From Anaerolineae bacterium (GTDB lineage: Bacteria > Chloroflexota > Anaerolineae > 4572-78 > NAK82), in the NCBI GenBank assembly GCA_030597485.1, contig JAUVRU010000088.1, forward strand, positions 1 through 7,202: DNA of 7,202 bases, read 5' to 3'. Positions 186-7,202 of the stretch are shown one piece after another (positions within the stretch are counted from its first letter, which is position 1; the number at the start of each line of letters is the position of its first letter). The notes beneath the pieces were generated by a model. The model saw only the letters and a program-made list of their open reading frames with translations. It searched no databases and was not told the DNA's origin. A program made the translations under genes and the position numbers.

Positions 186-1664
186 TCAGTGCCCGGGTGT
201 GCCTGGAAGCACACGGTCCCGCAGTCGATCCAACGGCAGTAGCCGCCACACCAGATTCATGTCTGGCTGTCTGAAGCCTCTCGCCAGGGCCAGAGTCACG
301 AAATACACAACGCCGCCCAGCGCCAGTAGCACCAGCGCATTGGAGTCCCGCACCTGCCATAGGGCCGCGCCCATCGTCGCGGAGGCCAGCGCTGGCCGCC
401 AGGCAACATCAATCCAGGGCACATGACACAAGTTCTTGCGCACCGCGTAGTAGAACGGTATGAGCAATGCCCACTCACTGAAGATGGTGGTCACGGCTGC
501 CGCCTGGTAACCGTAGCGTGGAATGAGATACAGGTTCACGCCCACGTTGAACACGACGCCAATGATGAACGCTTTGGTCAAGAAATGCTGCTGATCGATA
601 GCGATCAGCACGTATTGAGTAACCTGATTGATGAAACTGAAGGGCAAGAACCAGATCAGTATCTGTAGCGCAATCATCGAATCAGGCAGATACTGGCTGC
701 CGCCCAAGATGAGGATCAGCTCACGGGCAATGAAGGGCGTGCCCACAGAGATGGGCAACGCGATCATCAGCAACAGACGCAGCGACAGGATGTAGGAGCG
801 GACCAGCGAATCGCGGGCAGTCTTGGCGTAGCGACTCATCAGCGGGAAGAGAGCCAGCGTGAAATACGAAGGAATGATGTTTATGCCGTCGATGTACTTG
901 TAGGCTGCGCCGTAGAAGCCAACCGCCCGGTCGCCCCACGTCGGCTGCAGTATGAGAATGTCGATACGGAAGAAAAGAGTTGCCAGCAGATGATTGATCA
1001 TTAGAGGCAACGATTCGCCCATCATGTGTCGCCGCAGCCCAGGGTCATTGTCAAATTCGGGACGGAAGACCTTGCGCCACAGCAGGGACCCCAACACAAT
1101 TACCGAGGCGGTATTCGCCACCACTGAGACGCCTGCCAGCCCGATAACACCGCCTCCCAGCAGCAGGGCCAATGCCCCCAGGCTGACGCGGATGACGGTC
1201 GTGACAGTGGAAATCGCTGCTGGATATTCTGCCTTTTCATAGCCATAGAAGAGCGCGGTCAGTGCATCAGAGATGTTGCTCAGGAAAAGCCCGACAGCGA
1301 ACAGTCCAACCGCTATCACCGTCTCCGGGGCCACGCCGCCAAAGACGACGTAGAGCCACAGAGCTATTCCCATCAACGGCAGAGATGCCATCCACAAGAG
1401 TGCCCGCAGAATGGTCACATTCGAAAAATAGGCATTGCCCTGGGTGCGGTTACGGGCTACCTCGCGGGTCAGCAACGTCCCCAGCCCAAAGCGGGTGAGA
1501 ATCTCGGCATAGCCAATGAACACCACGGCAAACTGGAAACGCCCTGCTCCCTCGGGCGTCAATATACGAAGCATAAGCAACGCAAAGGCAAAATCGACCA
1601 TGCGGTTAATCAGTGCCATTGCCATCGGGGCCAGGCTGTTCTTGGCAATGCGCTTCATCGGCAT
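186..1664 (-). other. C-terminal flippase unit of the fusion (possible internal start)
   Basis: This part, residues 959-1450, has the length of a complete stand-alone Wzx/RfbX-like flippase, about 490 residues, and begins with a typical N-terminus (positively charged MKRIAKNS followed by a membrane helix and the RILTPEGAGRFQF stretch). Such proteins move lipid-linked sugars or oligosaccharides across the cytoplasmic membrane. Two in-frame ATG codons lie at the junction (first bases 1664 and 1658 on the minus strand). A weak purine-rich stretch, GGCGGA, lies 4 bases before the first of them. Separate translation of the flippase from the same message is therefore conceivable. The reading frame is open from the YfhO part with no stop, so fusion is the simplest reading. 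Confidence 0.7.
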
Positions 1665-4538
1665 ATCGTCCGCCGATTCACGGTACAGCTTTCCCCACCC
1701 CCACTGACCGAGCAGCAACAGCGTGATGACCCCTGCCAGGAAACTGACATACAGGCCCAGCTTGAAGCTCATAGGGGTGTACTTGAAGCGGACCTTCCAC
1801 TCCCCAGCATCATGATGGACCGCCCGGAAATTGCCATCCGCTCTGTAGATCGTCACCTCAGTTTCCTGATTGGCTATTTGGCCATTGTCATTTGCTATCT
1901 GTCTATATGCCTTCCATCCCGGGAAGTAGCTGTCAGCCAGCACCAGCCAGCCTGGCTCGTCCAGCGATACGCGAAGGAGGACTTCATTGGCAGCGTAACT
2001 CGTGACCGTCGCCGGTTGGACGATGCAGTTCTCAGTCTGGTATCCTGGCTCCGCCAGTGCCCCAGTCGCCTCGTCAGGTTCGAGGATGACCTGGCAGCGG
2101 GGGTTGAGGCTGCGGAGCGCGTAGTCCATCTTCTCCGCTGGCACCTGCTCTGCATAGGGAACCACGAAAGCACGGGGCAGCGCGTCTAGGTTCTCGTACA
2201 CGCGCAGCTCGCCCTCGTAGACCAGCCGGTAGCCATCATTGGGGATGTCCTGGGTGGTCAGTACGTAGCGGACGCCGAGCAGGTCGAGCAGTGCCGAATC
2301 CAGGGCGTGATAGCCAGGCGAATAAATCGGGGCAATACGGTTGTAGAGCAAGTCACCCTGCTCCTGGATGAGGTTCATGTAGCGGGCGAACTGGGCAGGG
2401 ATGATCGAATCATAACCGCGCACATCCTGAAGATCCCAATACATGCCACTGTTGGCTATCAAGGGATGGGGCTCCCCAGGCACATCGAAGGTCGTGATTC
2501 GGAAATGAGGATCCTCGGCCTGCCGCGCCGACAGCCAGTCAACCACCGGGGGACGAAAATGGAGCAAGGCCGGATCGGATGCTGGGTTGAAGCCATATCC
2601 TGCCGCCAACAGGTCCAGCGCCACCACTGCCACGGCCAGCGGCTGCCAGGCTGGCATCTTGCCCAATCTCCCTGGCAGTGGCAGGAAAATAGGGCAGCGG
2701 CTGATACGCAGGATGACACCGGCTGCCATGACAAACAGGAAGAATTTCAGCAGATTCACCCACTGATAGCCCAGAAACTGTCTTCCGTCGGCGAAGGCAT
2801 TCTGGGCTAGTCCCGACCGGTCCAACGCCATTTGCGCCAGTTCGATGAACGGTCCGGGAAGAACCAGGACCAGCAACAGCACCGCCAGGCCCGCCAACCC
2901 ACCCCAGAAGGTCAGCCAGCCAACACGCAGGCTGAAGGTGTACAGTGAGAAGGCTGGCGCGTGGGTCTGTTTGTCTCGGGCATCGGCTTCGTCGGTTGGG
3001 CTTACGTGGCGCTCCAGATACATCACCCCAATGCCAGCCAGCACGGCGATGCTGAGGGTGAAGGGATATATCCATCGGAAGGGCGAGTGCAACTGATTCC
3101 AGAAGGGGAGGCCATAATAGAGGAGCGCGTAGAGTGGCGTGCCAAAGGCAAAAAGCAGCGACAGGACAGCGAGCAACGCGAAGATCCATACCTGGGGCGA
3201 GCCGTCACCAGCATATTGCCCACCGTCACCGCCTGCTACGGCCAAGTTGTCACCAGTGGGGCGGGCATGCTGCCCGCCGTCACCGTCCGCTACGGCCAGG
3301 TTGTCACCCGTAGGGCGGGCATGTTGCCCGCCGTCGCCATCTGCTACGGCCAGGCTGTCACGCTGCAAGCGTGACCTACGAGTGAGTATCCATCCGGCGA
3401 CTGCCACCACTGCCAGCAGCAATGGCAGGATACCCACATATGCGCCTGCCTCCACGCTGGTCTTGGTATCCCAACCGGTACAATAAGGACAGAGTGGATT
3501 GATCTGACCGTGAGCATTCAACTCAATCGGCAGCCAGCGGCGAGTCACCACGTCGAAGAAGGCATGATGGCTCGGATTGCCGAAGAAATCAGGGATCAAG
3601 AAGGAGATAGCGCGCCGGGCAGGGAGTGCCCAGCCAACCACGTCAGCATACGTCACCGAACCTACCCGGAAGTTGTGGCTGGCCACCTCATAGAGGGGGA
3701 TGAACTGAACGGCCCCCAATCCCACGCCCAACAGCACCATGACTAGCAGCCAGACTCCGATGCGTGCTGTCGGCCCCCATACTCGCTGGCCTCGCCACAG
3801 GACGATCAGCCGACAGACGGCGTAAAACCCGCTGACCAGCAGCGTGTAGTAGGTGATCTCAACGTGACCAGCCAACATCTGGATTCCCAACGCCAGCGCA
3901 CCCACCACCACATAAGGGGCAGGGGAGTAATCTGTGGTGCCCTTCTCTTCTTGCTTGCGAACGATGACCTCAATCATCGCCAGCAGCAACGGCAGCCAGG
4001 CGGCTGCCGCGATAATCATGGTGAAGACGACGCTGACGACGAAAAATGTGCTTAACTGGTAGATTATGCCGCCGAGCAACCCACCCAGCCGGCTCACGCC
4101 TGACACGCGCAGAAACACGTACAAGGACAGACCGGCCAGCCAGAGCTGGACGACGGTGAACCACCCGTAAGCCTTGGCCAACGGGACCACGTAGAATATG
4201 AGACTCAAAGGATAGAGCGCTGAGTGCTGACCATTGGCCAGGAACGGATGGCCAGCGAAAAGATAGGGATCCCACAGGGGAACAGCTCGATTCTGAAGAC
4301 TCTGAAGAGCGAACCGCTTCCAGACATAATTCTCCAGAATTAGGTCAGAGAGGAGAGCATTGTGGGGACGGCCTACTCCCAACTCGTCGGCAAAGGAAGC
4401 CCATGGTTCGCCGACGAACAGATTGTCAACCGGGAGCAGGGTGCGAGGGCCCAGGCTAACCGGCCCCAGCAACAGGAGCGGCAGGATAAAAAGGAGGAGG
4501 GCAATCAGCGCATCCTGCCGGATTATGCGCCCGCGCAA
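186..4538 (-). CDS. YfhO-type membrane glycosyltransferase fused to a Wzx/MVF-type flippase
   Basis: A 1450-residue polytopic membrane protein made of two units that are normally separate proteins. Residues 1 to about 958 resemble YfhO-family proteins (GT-C-like fold, predicted to use polyprenyl-phosphate sugars). They show a first membrane helix near 10-30, an outer loop with acidic residues D38, D65 and D90 and the motif WDPYLFAGHPFLANGQ (89-104), then about a dozen further helices. A soluble outer domain follows at about 660-925 (LLGVRYVLTT, GWLVLADSYFPGWKAY), then a last helix near 925-945. Residues 959-1450 form a full-length flippase of the polysaccharide-export (MVF) superfamily, with the start-like stretch MPMKRIAKNSLAP and the motif ILTPEGAGRFQF. 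The start is TTG with AGGAG 8 bases upstream; the upstream glycosyltransferase ends 11 bases before it, so the two genes form an operon. Two in-frame repeat insertions lie in the YfhO part (residues about 392-444 and 880-890). The acceptor is unknown. An assembly error joining two genes is possible but not indicated. Confidence 0.85.
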   Translation of the reverse strand: MRGRIIRQDALIALLLFILPLLLLGPVSLGPRTLLPVDNLFVGEPWASFADELGVGRPHNALLSDLILENYVWKRFALQSLQNRAVPLWDPYLFAGHPFLANGQHSALYPLSLIFYVVPLAKAYGWFTVVQLWLAGLSLYVFLRVSGVSRLGGLLGGIIYQLSTFFVVSVVFTMIIAAAAWLPLLLAMIEVIVRKQEEKGTTDYSPAPYVVVGALALGIQMLAGHVEITYYTLLVSGFYAVCRLIVLWRGQRVWGPTARIGVWLLVMVLLGVGLGAVQFIPLYEVASHNFRVGSVTYADVVGWALPARRAISFLIPDFFGNPSHHAFFDVVTRRWLPIELNAHGQINPLCPYCTGWDTKTSVEAGAYVGILPLLLAVVAVAGWILTRRSRLQRDSLAVADGDGGQHARPTGDNLAVADGDGGQHARPTGDNLAVAGGDGGQYAGDGSPQVWIFALLAVLSLLFAFGTPLYALLYYGLPFWNQLHSPFRWIYPFTLSIAVLAGIGVMYLERHVSPTDEADARDKQTHAPAFSLYTFSLRVGWLTFWGGLAGLAVLLLVLVLPGPFIELAQMALDRSGLAQNAFADGRQFLGYQWVNLLKFFLFVMAAGVILRISRCPIFLPLPGRLGKMPAWQPLAVAVVALDLLAAGYGFNPASDPALLHFRPPVVDWLSARQAEDPHFRITTFDVPGEPHPLIANSGMYWDLQDVRGYDSIIPAQFARYMNLIQEQGDLLYNRIAPIYSPGYHALDSALLDLLGVRYVLTTQDIPNDGYRLVYEGELRVYENLDALPRAFVVPYAEQVPAEKMDYALRSLNPRCQVILEPDEATGALAEPGYQTENCIVQPATVTSYAANEVLLRVSLDEPGWLVLADSYFPGWKAYRQIANDNGQIANQETEVTIYRADGNFRAVHHDAGEWKVRFKYTPMSFKLGLYVSFLAGVITLLLLGQWGWGKLYRESADDMPMKRIAKNSLAPMAMALINRMVDFAFALLMLRILTPEGAGRFQFAVVFIGYAEILTRFGLGTLLTREVARNRTQGNAYFSNVTILRALLWMASLPLMGIALWLYVVFGGVAPETVIAVGLFAVGLFLSNISDALTALFYGYEKAEYPAAISTVTTVIRVSLGALALLLGGGVIGLAGVSVVANTASVIVLGSLLWRKVFRPEFDNDPGLRRHMMGESLPLMINHLLATLFFRIDILILQPTWGDRAVGFYGAAYKYIDGINIIPSYFTLALFPLMSRYAKTARDSLVRSYILSLRLLLMIALPISVGTPFIARELILILGGSQYLPDSMIALQILIWFLPFSFINQVTQYVLIAIDQQHFLTKAFIIGVVFNVGVNLYLIPRYGYQAAAVTTIFSEWALLIPFYYAVRKNLCHVPWIDVAWRPALASATMGAALWQVRDSNALVLLALGGVVYFVTLALARGFRQPDMNLVWRLLPLDRLRDRVLPGTPGH
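1869..1903 (-). repeat. Heptamer-based in-frame repeat in the YfhO outer domain
   Basis: Read on the minus strand, the segment splits into 7-base units GACAGAT, AGCAAAT, GACAATG, GCCAAAT and AGCCAAT. It encodes QIANDNG-QIANQ, a 7-residue direct repeat at residues 880-891, placed between the conserved PGWKAY stretch and the TIYRADGNFRAV stretch. In the relatives I know, this spot is a short turn (inference). Twenty-one bases, three heptamers, equal seven codons, so growth by threes keeps the frame. The units resemble those in the csoR-copZ gap. Confidence 0.6.
3208..3364 (-). repeat. 54-bp tandem repeat, about 2.9 copies, with internal hairpins
   Basis: The landmark CTACGGCCA recurs on the plus strand at 3236, 3290 and 3344, exactly 54 bases apart, and sequence between the landmarks is nearly identical. 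Two units each hold a perfect inverted repeat, GGCGGGCA, then TGC or TGT, then TGCCCGCC (3260-3278 and 3314-3332). On the minus strand the array encodes an 18-residue repeat, LAVADGDGGQHARPTGDN, at about residues 392-444 of the YfhO unit. It sits in a hydrophilic loop right after the positively charged TRRSRLQR, so the loop is probably cytoplasmic. Because 54 is a multiple of three, copies can be gained or lost without breaking the frame. Confidence 0.9.
3357..3375. repeat. Perfect 8-bp hairpin beside the 54-bp array
   Basis: GTCACGCT (3357-3364), loop GCA, and AGCGTGAC (3368-3375) form a perfect inverted repeat with a three-base loop. It has the same architecture as the two hairpins inside the 54-bp units but a different sequence, and it marks the right edge of the array. 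It lies inside the coding region (residues about 388-394). Confidence 0.75.
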
Positions 4539-4546
4539 TGCAAGGA

Positions 4547-4551
4547 CTCCT
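4547..4551 (-). promoter_or_regulatory. Shine-Dalgarno AGGAG overlapping the upstream stop codon
   Basis: On the minus strand the GT2 gene ends in TAG (4552-4550), and AGGAG starts inside that stop. Eight bases follow, then the TTG codon of the fusion gene. This site decides the start of the large gene and suggests that the two genes are translationally coupled. Confidence 0.75.
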
Positions 4552-5302
4552 AATCCTGAGCTTCGATTGGGCGAGGTAGGGGCTTCAGATGGCGATGGCG
4601 CCAGCCGATCTCAAACACGCGTATGGCCGCCTCAATCTTCACTGGCACAGACATCTTGCTCTGGCCGATGCGACGATCCTCGAAGTAGATAGGGGTTTCC
4701 AGCACGCGCAGCCCGATTCTCTCAGCCACATACGCCATTTCCACCTGGAACACGTAACCATTGGACCGAATGCGCTCCAATCCCAGCTGCCTGAGGGCAC
4801 TGCTTCGCCAACACTTGAAGCCAGCGGTTGCGTCGGTGGCACGCATACCCAGTATCAGGCGCACCCAAACGGAGTTGGCCCACCAGCTCAGGAACCAGCG
4901 TCCCCACCCCCATCGCTCATCGATTCGTCCGCCTTCCACATAACGCGAGCCCACTACCACATCACAGTCCTTGATAAGCTCAAGGAAGGTGGGGATATAC
5001 GTCGGCGAGTGGGAGAAATCGGCGTCCATCTGGACGACGAAGTCAGCCCCGTGCTCCAAAGCCCACGTGAAGCCCTGCACGTAGGCGGTGCCCAGTCCCA
5101 GCTTGCCTGGACGATGTATGACACAAATCGTGCCCGGGTAGCGCTGGACAAGGTCATCTGCCACGTCACCTGTGCCGTCAGGGGACGCGTCGTCCACAAC
5201 TAACAGCTCAAGTCCCTCAATGCCCAATGCCAGAAGTTCGGCAGCGATTGCGGGAAGGTTGTCAGCCTCGTTATAGGTGGGAACCACGACGATGAGTTTC
5301 AT
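4550..5302 (-). CDS. GT2 glycosyltransferase, polyprenol-phosphate mannose synthase type
   Basis: A 250-residue cytoplasmic family-2 glycosyltransferase like DPM1. Enzymes of this type move mannose (sometimes another sugar) from a nucleotide sugar to polyprenyl or dolichyl phosphate, giving the donor used by GT-C enzymes. Visible motifs are [13 protein letters not shown] (5-17), [10 protein letters not shown] (35-44), the metal-binding DAD at 93-95 in [17 protein letters not shown] (118-125), [10 protein letters not shown] (157-166), and near the end GYVFQVEM and [12 protein letters not shown]. No C-terminal membrane helices follow, as in the catalytic-only DPM type. I chose the ATG at 5302 because a GTG at 5401 in the same frame coincides with the predicted transcription start and its extra 33 residues precede the family's usual N-terminus. 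No good Shine-Dalgarno site precedes the ATG. The downstream gene starts 11 bases after the stop. The sugar cannot be told from sequence alone; mannose or glucose are the best guesses. Confidence 0.88.
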
Positions 5303-5397
5303 AAGCAAACAACTGTGGGGAACGGACAGGCAGGACAGCAAACAACAGTCGAGAGCCGCCGCCCCCGAACGATCTTTCTCCCTGTCTGCGTTCAACA
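5303..5397 (-). promoter_or_regulatory. About 95-base leader of the GT2 operon with direct repeats
   Basis: Between the predicted transcription start and the ATG at 5302 lies a leader with a 10-base direct repeat, AGCAAACAAC on the plus strand at 5304-5313 and 5337-5346, 33 bases apart. A plus-strand GGACAG is also doubled (5324-5329 and 5333-5338). No ribosome site or known riboswitch is recognisable. The leader frame is open in phase with the gene. Confidence 0.45.
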
Positions 5398-5403
5398 GCA
5401 CAG

Positions 5404-5691: not shown

Positions 5692-5707
5692 AGTGAGAGG
5701 CCAGTCT

Positions 5708-5986
5708 ATGACAGACGAGACGACGACTGATATAGTGAATCGACTGAAGAGCATCGAAGGCCACATGCGTGGTATTCAGCGCATGGTGGAGAATGGCGAC
5801 TACTGCATCGACATCGTCAACCAGCTGTTGGCCGTGCAGCGCGCCATGCAGAGGGTCAACAGCCTGGTGCTCGAACGCCACCTGCATACCTGCGTGACCA
5901 CGGCTATCCGGGGCGACGATCCGGCCGAACGCGAGCGGGTTATCGGCGAGATCATGGACGTGTTCGAGGCAAGCGGCAAAATGTAA
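5708..5986 (+). CDS. csoR: CsoR copper-sensing transcriptional repressor
   Basis: A 92-residue all-helical DNA-binding repressor of the CsoR/RcnR family (DUF156). The apo form binds the operator of copper-efflux genes; Cu(I) binding releases it. The copper site is intact: C33, H58 and C62 give Cys-x24-His-x3-Cys, the spacing of the Mycobacterium tuberculosis copper sensor, which argues against the persulfide sensor CstR (no His) and the nickel sensor RcnR. The conserved stretch RLKSIEGHMRGIQRM (12-26) is the family's DNA-binding helix region. I chose ATG 5708 because GAGAGG (5695-5700) lies 7 bases before it; a GTG at 5693 overlaps that site and would add five residues. A consensus promoter and a likely operator precede it, so it should repress itself and the copZ-copA genes behind it. 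Confidence 0.93.
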   Translation: MTDETTTDIVNRLKSIEGHMRGIQRMVENGDYCIDIVNQLLAVQRAMQRVNSLVLERHLHTCVTTAIRGDDPAERERVIGEIMDVFEASGKM

Positions 5987-6048
5987 GCAATCAGCAATTA
6001 GCGGTCAGCAGTCAGCCGCCCGCCTACACCAGGCGGCAGTTAGCGATC
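5986..6048 (+). repeat. Phased heptamer repeat array after csoR
   Basis: Starting on the last base of the csoR stop, units AGCAATC, AGCAATT, AGCGGTC, AGCAGTC and AGCCGCC follow at 5986, 5993, 6000, 6007 and 6014. The phase is still kept at 6035 (GGCAGTT) and 6042 (AGCGATC). Between them CCGCCT (6020-6025), loop ACACC, and AGGCGG (6031-6036) form a small hairpin. No T-run follows it, so a terminator is unlikely. Confidence 0.7.
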
Positions 6049-6093
6049 AAAGTGAAACAGAGGCGCCCATCGCTCGACCAGATGCTAGAACCC

Positions 6094-6114
6094 GATTGCT
6101 GAACGCTGACGGCT
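6094..6114 (-). repeat. Inverted heptamer units before copZ
   Basis: On the minus strand the units AGCCGTC, AGCGTTC and AGCAATC follow one another (complements of 6108-6114, 6101-6107 and 6094-6100). They match the plus-strand array after csoR, for example TAGCGGTCAGCAGTCAGC against TAGCCGTCAGCGTTCAGC. The two arrays could pair in the transcript and enclose about 80 bases between csoR and copZ. No promoter or CsoR-type operator is evident in this gap. Confidence 0.65.
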
Positions 6115-6136
6115 ATTGGAATTGGAGGATAGTGCT

Positions 6137-6346
6137 ATGGCAACCAAAACCTTTGAGGTCCCGAATATCACCTGCGGCCATTGCGTCGCCACCATTGAGC
6201 GCGAGGTTGGTGAGCTGGCAGGCGTGGCGTCGGTCAAGGCCGACGAAACGACGAAGATGGTCACCGTCGACTGGGGAGACTCGGCCACTGACTGGGAGAC
6301 CATCCGTGCCCTGCTGGAGGAGATCAACTACCCGCCGGAGCGTTAG
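6137..6346 (+). CDS. copZ: CopZ-like copper chaperone (HMA domain)
   Basis: A 69-residue cytoplasmic heavy-metal-associated domain protein. Such chaperones bind Cu(I) with two cysteines and hand it to CopA and to CsoR. The binding motif ITCGHC (11-16) carries C13 and C16; the methionine usual at the first place is isoleucine, a variant I recall from this kind of small chaperone. The end INYPPE (63-68) matches the usual tyrosine loop near the metal site. Start ATG 6137 has GGAGG (6124-6128) 8 bases upstream; a TTG at 6116 in frame lacks such support. The stop TAG touches the ATG of copA directly, and copA's GGAG lies inside this gene, so the two are surely co-expressed. No own promoter is apparent, so it probably relies on the csoR promoter. 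Confidence 0.9.
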   Translation: MATKTFEVPNITCGHCVATIEREVGELAGVASVKADETTKMVTVDWGDSATDWETIRALLEEINYPPER

Positions 6347-7202
6347 ATGGCTCAACAGAAAAACACCCTTCCCATTACCGGCATGACCTGCGCCAATTGC
6401 GCGGCCACCATCGAGCGCAATCTGAAGAAGCTCGATGGTGTGGCTGAGGCCAACGTCAATTTCGCCACTGAGACGGCGACCGTGACATTTGACCCGGCGG
6501 TGCTGGGTGAAGGTGCCTTGATCAGCAAGATCAAGGACGTGGGCTACGACGTGGCCATCGCCAGAGTGGAACTGCCCATCACCGGCATGACCTGCGCCAA
6601 CTGTGCCGCCACGGTCGAGCGGACGCTCAACAAGAAGGTGCCAGGCGTCGTTTCAGCCACTGTCAATTTCGCCACCGAGAAGGCGACGGTGGAGTATGTC
6701 CCCGGTCAGGTTGCTCACAGCGACCTGGTGACGGCCATCGAGAAGGCCGGCTATGGGGTAGTCGAGTCTGATGCCGGGCAACTGGAAGACGCTGAGCAGG
6801 CTGCCCGTGAGGCAGAGATTCGCGATCAAACCCGCAAGTTGTGGATCGGCATCATCTTCACCCTGCCGCTTTTCCTGCTCAGCATGAGTCGGGACTTCGG
6901 GTGGCTGGGCGAGTGGTCGCACGCGCCATGGGTGAACTGGCTGATGATGGCGCTGGCCCTGCCGGTACAGTTCTACGTCGGGTGGGACTACTATGTGGGC
7001 GGCTGGAAAGCGTTGCGCAACGGCACCGCCAATATGGATGTGCTGGTGGCGATGGGCTCGTCCGCCGCTTTTTTCTACAGCGTACCGGTCACCATAGCCC
7101 TGACATTAGGCAGCACGGCTTTGGGCACGCATGTCTACTTCGAGACGGCTGCCGTCATCATCACCCTCATCAAGCTGGGCAAACTGTTGGAGGCACGGGC
7201 CA
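6347..7202 (+). CDS. copA: Copper-exporting P1B-type ATPase CopA, N-terminal part (cut by window edge)
   Basis: The first 285 codons of a Cu(I)-translocating P-type ATPase of the inner membrane, which pumps copper out of the cytoplasm. Two N-terminal HMA domains are complete, with GMTCANC motifs at C15/C18 and C83/C86. A linker rich in charged residues (about 142-163) follows. Then come four membrane segments near 165-181, 195-212, 231-254 and 263-281, with the family signatures NMDVLVAMGSSAAFFYS (229-245) and YFETAAVIITLIKLGKLLEARA (264-285). The CPC motif, the phosphorylated DKTGT aspartate and the ATP-binding domain lie beyond the edge. The start ATG 6347 directly follows the copZ stop and has GGAG at 6337-6340. 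Silver may also be a substrate. The GMTCANC sites and the CsoR/CopZ neighbours favour copper over zinc or cadmium. Confidence 0.93.
   Translation, partial: MAQQKNTLPITGMTCANCAATIERNLKKLDGVAEANVNFATETATVTFDPAVLGEGALISKIKDVGYDVAIARVELPITGMTCANCAATVERTLNKKVPGVVSATVNFATEKATVEYVPGQVAHSDLVTAIEKAGYGVVESDAGQLEDAEQAAREAEIRDQTRKLWIGIIFTLPLFLLSMSRDFGWLGEWSHAPWVNWLMMALALPVQFYVGWDYYVGGWKALRNGTANMDVLVAMGSSAAFFYSVPVTIALTLGSTALGTHVYFETAAVIITLIKLGKLLEARA
6371..6700 (+). repeat. 204-bp direct repeat encoding the two HMA domains of CopA
   Basis: The two HMA domains are offset by exactly 204 bases (68 codons; M13 to M81). Blocks of near-identical DNA remain: CCCATYACCGGCATGACCTG at 6371 and 6575, and GTCAATTTCGCCAC at 6458 and 6662. 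Synonymous positions inside these blocks are mostly unchanged. This suggests a fairly recent duplication or gene conversion between the domains. Confidence 0.7.

Follow-up and report, generated by a model that had tools for sequence, protein, structure and literature searches.

A predicted YfhO-type GT-C glycosyltransferase and a predicted MOP-superfamily flippase joined in a single polypeptide of the Chloroflexota

The window, the whole stretch of 7,202 nucleotides analysed here, encodes on its reverse strand a gene of 1450 codons (186..4538) comprising a YfhO-type GT-C half, a short linker and a Wzx/MurJ-type MOP flippase half. The frame (4538-186) opens with a TTG codon and runs for 1450 amino acids with no stop between the halves, while a ribosome-binding-like GGAG (4547..4550, reverse strand) is found 5' of TTG 4538 and overlaps the upstream gene by one base, the first base of the motif being also the final base of that gene's stop codon. 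The upstream gene, which lies on the same strand and stops 11 bp short of the TTG, encodes a GT2 glycosyltransferase related to the dolichol-phosphate-mannose synthases (DPMS), as recognised from PF00535 and its homologues (4550..5302). Its open reading frame spans 4550-5401, with homology beginning at about Met34 (5302), and its best solved relative is the DPMS 5mlz (E 1.4e-27), with the MDAD motif aligned in both. No gene for an acceptor was recognised in the window. The opposite strand carries a copper-type cluster (5693-7202), including a CsoR-like repressor (PF02583), a 76 amino acid ORF resembling a copper chaperone by eye (6116-6346) and a two-HMA-domain protein, probably a P-type ATPase, which is cut by the contig end.

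The GT-C half covers residues 1-951 (1686..4538, reverse strand) and is delimited by PF09586, the AF2 model and GT-C structural matches. The whole protein scores 48.0 bits against PF09586 (YfhO), with the best stretch at residues 106-284, and the N-terminal half alone scores 55.1 bits, both exceeding the Pfam gathering cut-off of 28.5. A YfhO match in this half (E <= 0.001) was obtained for 52/52 aligned fused proteins, including that of the window. The structure of each half was modelled separately, and the AF2 model of residues 1-962 (pLDDT 90.2) is consistent with a GT-C fold, for which Foldseek gave modest support (three matches with E <= 0.001; best TM-scores of the top match 0.34/0.26). 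Searches of the PDB revealed no sequence relatives of either the N-half profile or the whole fusion protein at E values up to 1. The first predicted extracellular loop (residues 29-119; 4182..4454) bears an acidic residue, D65 (codon 4346-4344), which is present in 63/63 fused and 46/48 free YfhO proteins in the alignment. On the basis of its likeness to the first-loop aspartate of other GT-C enzymes, D65 is a candidate catalytic residue. A second aspartate, D38, is kept in 62/63 fused proteins and corresponds to a gap in 31/48 free YfhO proteins. For the large loop of Bacillus subtilis YfhO, PMC5836110 reports that a conserved DXD motif is absent and that the catalytic residues cannot be predicted. 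A strand-rich domain (residues 648-922; 1773..2597), delimited by DSSP on the AF2 model and predicted to face the outside, precedes the last helix of the GT-C half in the same model (residues 923-951; 1686..1772). The charges of the loops do not settle the topology of the fusion.

An in-frame array of three 54-bp units with perfect palindromes, at about residues 390-443 (3211..3372, reverse strand), overlaps a loop in the GT-C half that was modelled with low confidence. The palindrome GGCGGGCA-N3-TGCCCGCC occurs twice in the array and at one other place in the same genome, while GTCACGCT-N3-AGCGTGAC occurs once in the array and at six other places in the genome, one of them with a mismatch. 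P0001, a relative with 94 % identity to the fusion protein, has a shorter loop at this site, and the array looks like a dispersed REP-like element which is tolerated in the predicted loop.

The remaining part of the protein, residues 964-1450 (189..1649, reverse strand), belongs to the MOP superfamily of flippases. It matches PF01943 (109.8 bits at residues 965-1237; Pfam cut-off 28.2), MurJ (35.0 bits; cut-off 27.4) and MatE (34.4 bits; cut-off 24.9), the Polysacc_synt, Polysacc_synt_3, MurJ and MatE profiles of Pfam are all found within it, and its model is consistent with a MOP fold. As with the N-terminal half, the PF01943 match is shared by 52/52 aligned fused proteins, that of the window included (E <= 0.001). 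Both families thus exceed their Pfam cut-offs in the window protein, which bears out the first-pass annotation of two full-length units, a YfhO-type glycosyltransferase and a Wzx-like flippase. R1025 is conserved in all 122 MOP sequences compared, and R1045 in 62/62 fused, 38/40 standalone and 13/20 other MOP proteins; neither half looks decayed in the fused proteins. The MOP half falls far under the cut-off of the Wzx_EPS equivalog NF041871 (70.4 of the 800 bits required), and the window region reaches at most 36.2 bits against the MurJ equivalog TIGR01695 (cut-off 235.55). This score, together with separate MurJ genes exceeding the TIGR01695 cut-off in 16/16 genomes, excludes the fusion as the MurJ of the cell itself. 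No sequence relatives of the C-half profile were found in the PDB at E values up to 0.01.

The two halves are joined by a linker predicted to be cytoplasmic (residues 952-963, YRESADDMPMKR; 1650..1685, reverse strand), in which the Met codons are not conserved. The distance between W948 in the last GT-C helix and N967, the first invariant MOP residue, is 16-19 residues in 51/52 fused proteins, while a Met anywhere in the linker stretch occurs in 6/52 aligned fused proteins, including that of the window. The start-like MPMKR at the junction had been taken to indicate either a recent gene join or internal initiation. The latter finds no backing in the conservation of the linker Met, and no clear ribosome site was seen by eye 5' of MPMKR; the former is contradicted by fused relatives ranging from 94 % identity down to 33-35 % over each half. 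The closest of these, P0001 (1433 amino acids; 94 % identity to the window protein), was retrieved among the best 120 of 1925 matches in the protein search, the top matches being fused over their full length. Furthermore, the single-contig genome G002 shows the same arrangement as the window in a frame of 1438 codons.

Two genome surveys extend these observations. Among the genome of the window and 60 relatives, ranging from the same family to the same class, 60/61 had a match, and in at least 44/61, counted among the matches listed, the junction is crossed with both halves in one open frame. The same domain order is thus present in related genomes, and close relatives do not all carry two separate genes, an arrangement that would have spoken against the uninterrupted chain described at first pass. 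Of the other 17 genomes, one lacked a match and the rest contained weaker, unfused family members or gene pieces, some at contig edges. When 400 genomes were drawn evenly from the phylum, 240 had a match at E <= 1e-30, and at least 43/400 carried both halves in one frame, as counted among the matches listed; of these, 21 belong to the class of the window and 22 lie outside it, under fourteen family codes. A further genome of this set, G338, has a reduced form, and many others encode the MOP half alone, in a protein of roughly 470-640 amino acids. An intact neighbouring gene pair for the two halves was not seen in the 40 regions inspected. Chance, or an assembly or sequencing artefact, is ruled out as the source of the fusion because P0001, G002, at least 44/61 relatives and at least 43/400 genomes of the phylum are fused, with the junctions of relatives in a single frame. 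The fusion is real, ancient and widespread in the Chloroflexota. Records holding the fusion, or its end at a contig edge, had Chloroflexota-type titles in 18/18 cases, including Anaerolineales, Ardenticatenia and Thermoflexus MAGs, and Thermoflexus proteins were also found in another protein search. With a divergent fused protein as query, fused proteins were found down to about 32 % identity to that query, and YfhO-only proteins below this, among the best 120 listed. No fusions outside the Chloroflexota were present among the organism names shown for the best 120 of 1925, 199 and 2085 matches, most of which are unnamed.

The histories of the two halves differ. In a FastTree phylogeny, all 63 fused GT-C domains separate from 48 free YfhO proteins (support 0.81), after five apparently free sequences on the fused side, which are truncated pieces of fused genes, had been set aside. 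In an IQ-TREE phylogeny of 23 fused and 48 free GT-C sequences the fused group has a support of 100, with one free YfhO placed inside it at a weak support of 58; this protein, P0193, comprises 865 residues and has no MOP half. The free YfhO proteins were gathered by a single search, for which a divergent fused protein served as query, and from the fetched loci, and nearer free relatives may be absent from this set. For the MOP domains, an alignment of 122 sequences thinned from 136 was used, from which 34/62 fused, 31/40 standalone and 4/20 other MOP sequences entered the tree and test; L169 and L170, fetched as standalone relatives, fell among the other MOP proteins and were omitted. A tree forcing the fused MOP domains into one group was rejected (p-AU 3.3e-8) in a test that used a quick tree with long branches for L117 and L171 and a group set by architecture, the FastTree phylogeny having been seen beforehand. 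The starred branches of the MOP tree require at least four changes between the fused and unfused states. As regards rooting, the node uniting fused and standalone MOP proteins has a support of 0.28 in the rerooted FastTree phylogeny, and the later tree splits off the four outgroup sequences with a support of 100. Because the fused GT-C halves group together and the fused MOP halves do not, the phylogenies suggest that the two genes fused once, early in the history of the phylum, and that the GT-C half was subsequently lost several times; from the GT-C and MOP trees together, we infer that the changes are losses rather than gains.

Possible traces of such losses can be distinguished. In many standalone MOP proteins the MOP domain is preceded by one additional helix. 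In about 11/40 of them (L102, L107, L152-L154 and L163-L168) this helix ends by eye in a WRRFYRDD-like motif, and several fused GT-C halves end in a similar way. The extra helix is a possible remnant of the GT-C half. An 896-residue relative (L092, 6894-9581; G338) is reduced, with most of the GT-C half gone, and appears to retain the N-terminal part of this half, the end of the outer domain and the last helix before the MOP half. At L098 (6235-8854; G238), a standalone gene belonging to the same MOP group has a DPMS-like GT2 gene as its neighbour and lacks the GT-C half.

Among 80 distinct fused frames, 63 could be tested for a neighbouring GT2 gene. It lies directly upstream in 30/63 and is absent within 800 bp upstream in 33/63, for all of which 900 bp or more of sequence is available on that side, and constant linkage is thus not supported. 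The other 17/80 could not be judged, nine of them showing a piece of a GT2 gene at the 5' side (L128 among these). A GT2 homologue, often at moderate identity, is encoded somewhere in 39/40 genomes, 31 of the 40 having been selected for the lack of a GT2 gene beside the fusion. Small GtrA-type flippases (PF04138) occur in 13/16 genomes searched, the genome of the window among the sixteen and all with the fusion, so that the fusion as a general substitute for GtrA is not supported; none was found in the assembly of the window itself (71.65 % complete). Fifteen loci, picked because GT2 was not found beside the fusion, were read by eye; at most of these the neighbours look unrelated to polysaccharides, with sugar-related genes near the fusion at L117, L118, L120 and L124. 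At L118 and L120 the upstream neighbours encode, by eye, a membrane protein with PDEPAHxNY close to its N-terminus, which may be a further GT-C enzyme.

As judged by family and fold, the flippase and the GT-C enzyme of a multi-component transmembrane glycosylation system are both present in this one chain, and the coupling of sugar delivery to transfer would be a natural reading of the fusion. The reading towards which we lean is that the single chain would flip a polyprenyl-phosphate sugar, probably supplied by the upstream GT2 enzyme, and would then transfer it to an acceptor on the outside. By homology, the GT2 enzyme would load one sugar onto polyprenyl phosphate at the cytoplasmic face; by fold and family, the MOP half would bring the sugar on its lipid across to the outer leaflet; and the GT-C half, which has the conserved first-loop D65 and a large domain predicted to be extracellular, would pass the sugar to the acceptor. 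The linker of about 12 residues, predicted to be cytoplasmic, tethers the flippase, and sugar delivery would therefore be local. A self-contained flip-and-transfer machine with direct hand-over, arising from one deep Chloroflexota fusion that was dismantled several times and left a last-helix scar in some solo flippases, is put forward more tentatively.

Against donor flipping by the MOP half, another protein may flip the donor, because a GtrA-type flippase is encoded in 13/16 of the fusion genomes. Also weighing against the favoured reading are the frames that lack an adjacent GT2 gene, the often moderate identity of the GT2 homologues elsewhere in the genomes, the dispensable Wzx-type protein of Listeria, the low equivalog score of the MOP half and the modest Foldseek support for the GT-C half. 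In the main alternative, the MOP half would move the acceptor, a lipid-linked (probably pyrophosphate) glycan, outwards, with the GT-C half adding a sugar from a polyprenyl-phosphate donor that GtrA or some other protein had brought across. The presence of GtrA in most genomes searched speaks for this alternative, which also accords with the conserved basic residues of the MOP half, the few fused genes near sugar-related genes, and the pyrophosphate-linked glycans classically moved by Wzx and MurJ (described for WzxE in PMC11706664). However, the neighbouring GT2, where adjacent, is of the type that makes monosaccharide donors, most of the fifteen loci show no polysaccharide cluster, and MATE/Wzx-type flippases have already been proposed for polyprenyl-phosphate monosaccharides (PMC8035078, PMC11127046); flipping of the acceptor is considered rather unlikely. 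It is improbable that one half is inactive and kept as a scaffold or assembly partner of the other; the GT-C half is indeed reduced in L092 and absent from the standalone genes of the same MOP group, but the conserved residues of the two halves are retained in almost every fused sequence compared, down to about 32 % identity between fused pairs. Almost no credence can be given to a join of recent origin, to a sequencing artefact, or to internal initiation at MPMKR yielding two products: the two Met codons at the window junction speak for these, whereas the single-frame fusions in both surveys and the rarity of Met in the linkers speak against them. On the preferred reading, in which the chain flips and transfers a donor sugar, the fusion would represent a route of envelope glycosylation widespread in the Chloroflexota. 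The identity of the flippases for polyprenyl-phosphate monosaccharides, and the coupling of flipping to transfer, have been argued mostly from genetics and homology; a MOP flippase that is naturally and covalently linked to a GT-C enzyme points to two partners acting together, and provides a single polypeptide with which the two steps could be reconstituted and taken apart.

Among known systems, MurJ and WzxE share the fold of the C-terminal half, but have about 12-17 % identity to it in the best alignments, are stand-alone proteins and flip pyrophosphate-linked glycans. The domains of MprF are unrelated to those of the fusion. MprF does, however, unite a domain for synthesis with one for translocation in the same polypeptide (PMC8131360), although aminoacyl phospholipids are what it makes and then moves. 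The CsbB/GtcA/YfhO systems of Bacillus, Staphylococcus and Listeria, as described in PMC5836110, PMC7389260 and PMC8035078, resemble the fusion and its GT2 neighbour in that a GT-A donor synthase is combined with a YfhO-family GT-C enzyme for extracellular transfer. They differ in comprising three separate proteins, with the small GtrA-family GtcA rather than a MOP protein as flippase, and teichoic acid as acceptor. For the glycosylation of Listeria lipoteichoic acid (LTA), PMC7389260 reports that GtcA was required, whereas a Wzx-type candidate proved dispensable when tested. In the GacI/GacJ/GacK/GacL system of Streptococcus pyogenes, a Wzx-type flippase has been proposed beside a GT-C enzyme (PMC8035078), but GacK and GacL are separate proteins and GacL is listed there with a PMT-2 domain, not YfhO. 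Similarly, for O antigens, PMC11127046 proposes a polyprenyl phosphoribose synthase, a MATE-family flippase for the polyprenyl-phosphate monosaccharide and a GT-C enzyme (GT136), although these are separate proteins, the GT-C enzyme belongs to another family and the donor is a pentofuranose. A fusion of this kind was not found in print in searches and excerpts of the open-licence PMC literature. Here the flippase and GT-C enzyme share one chain, the proposed precedents being separate proteins.
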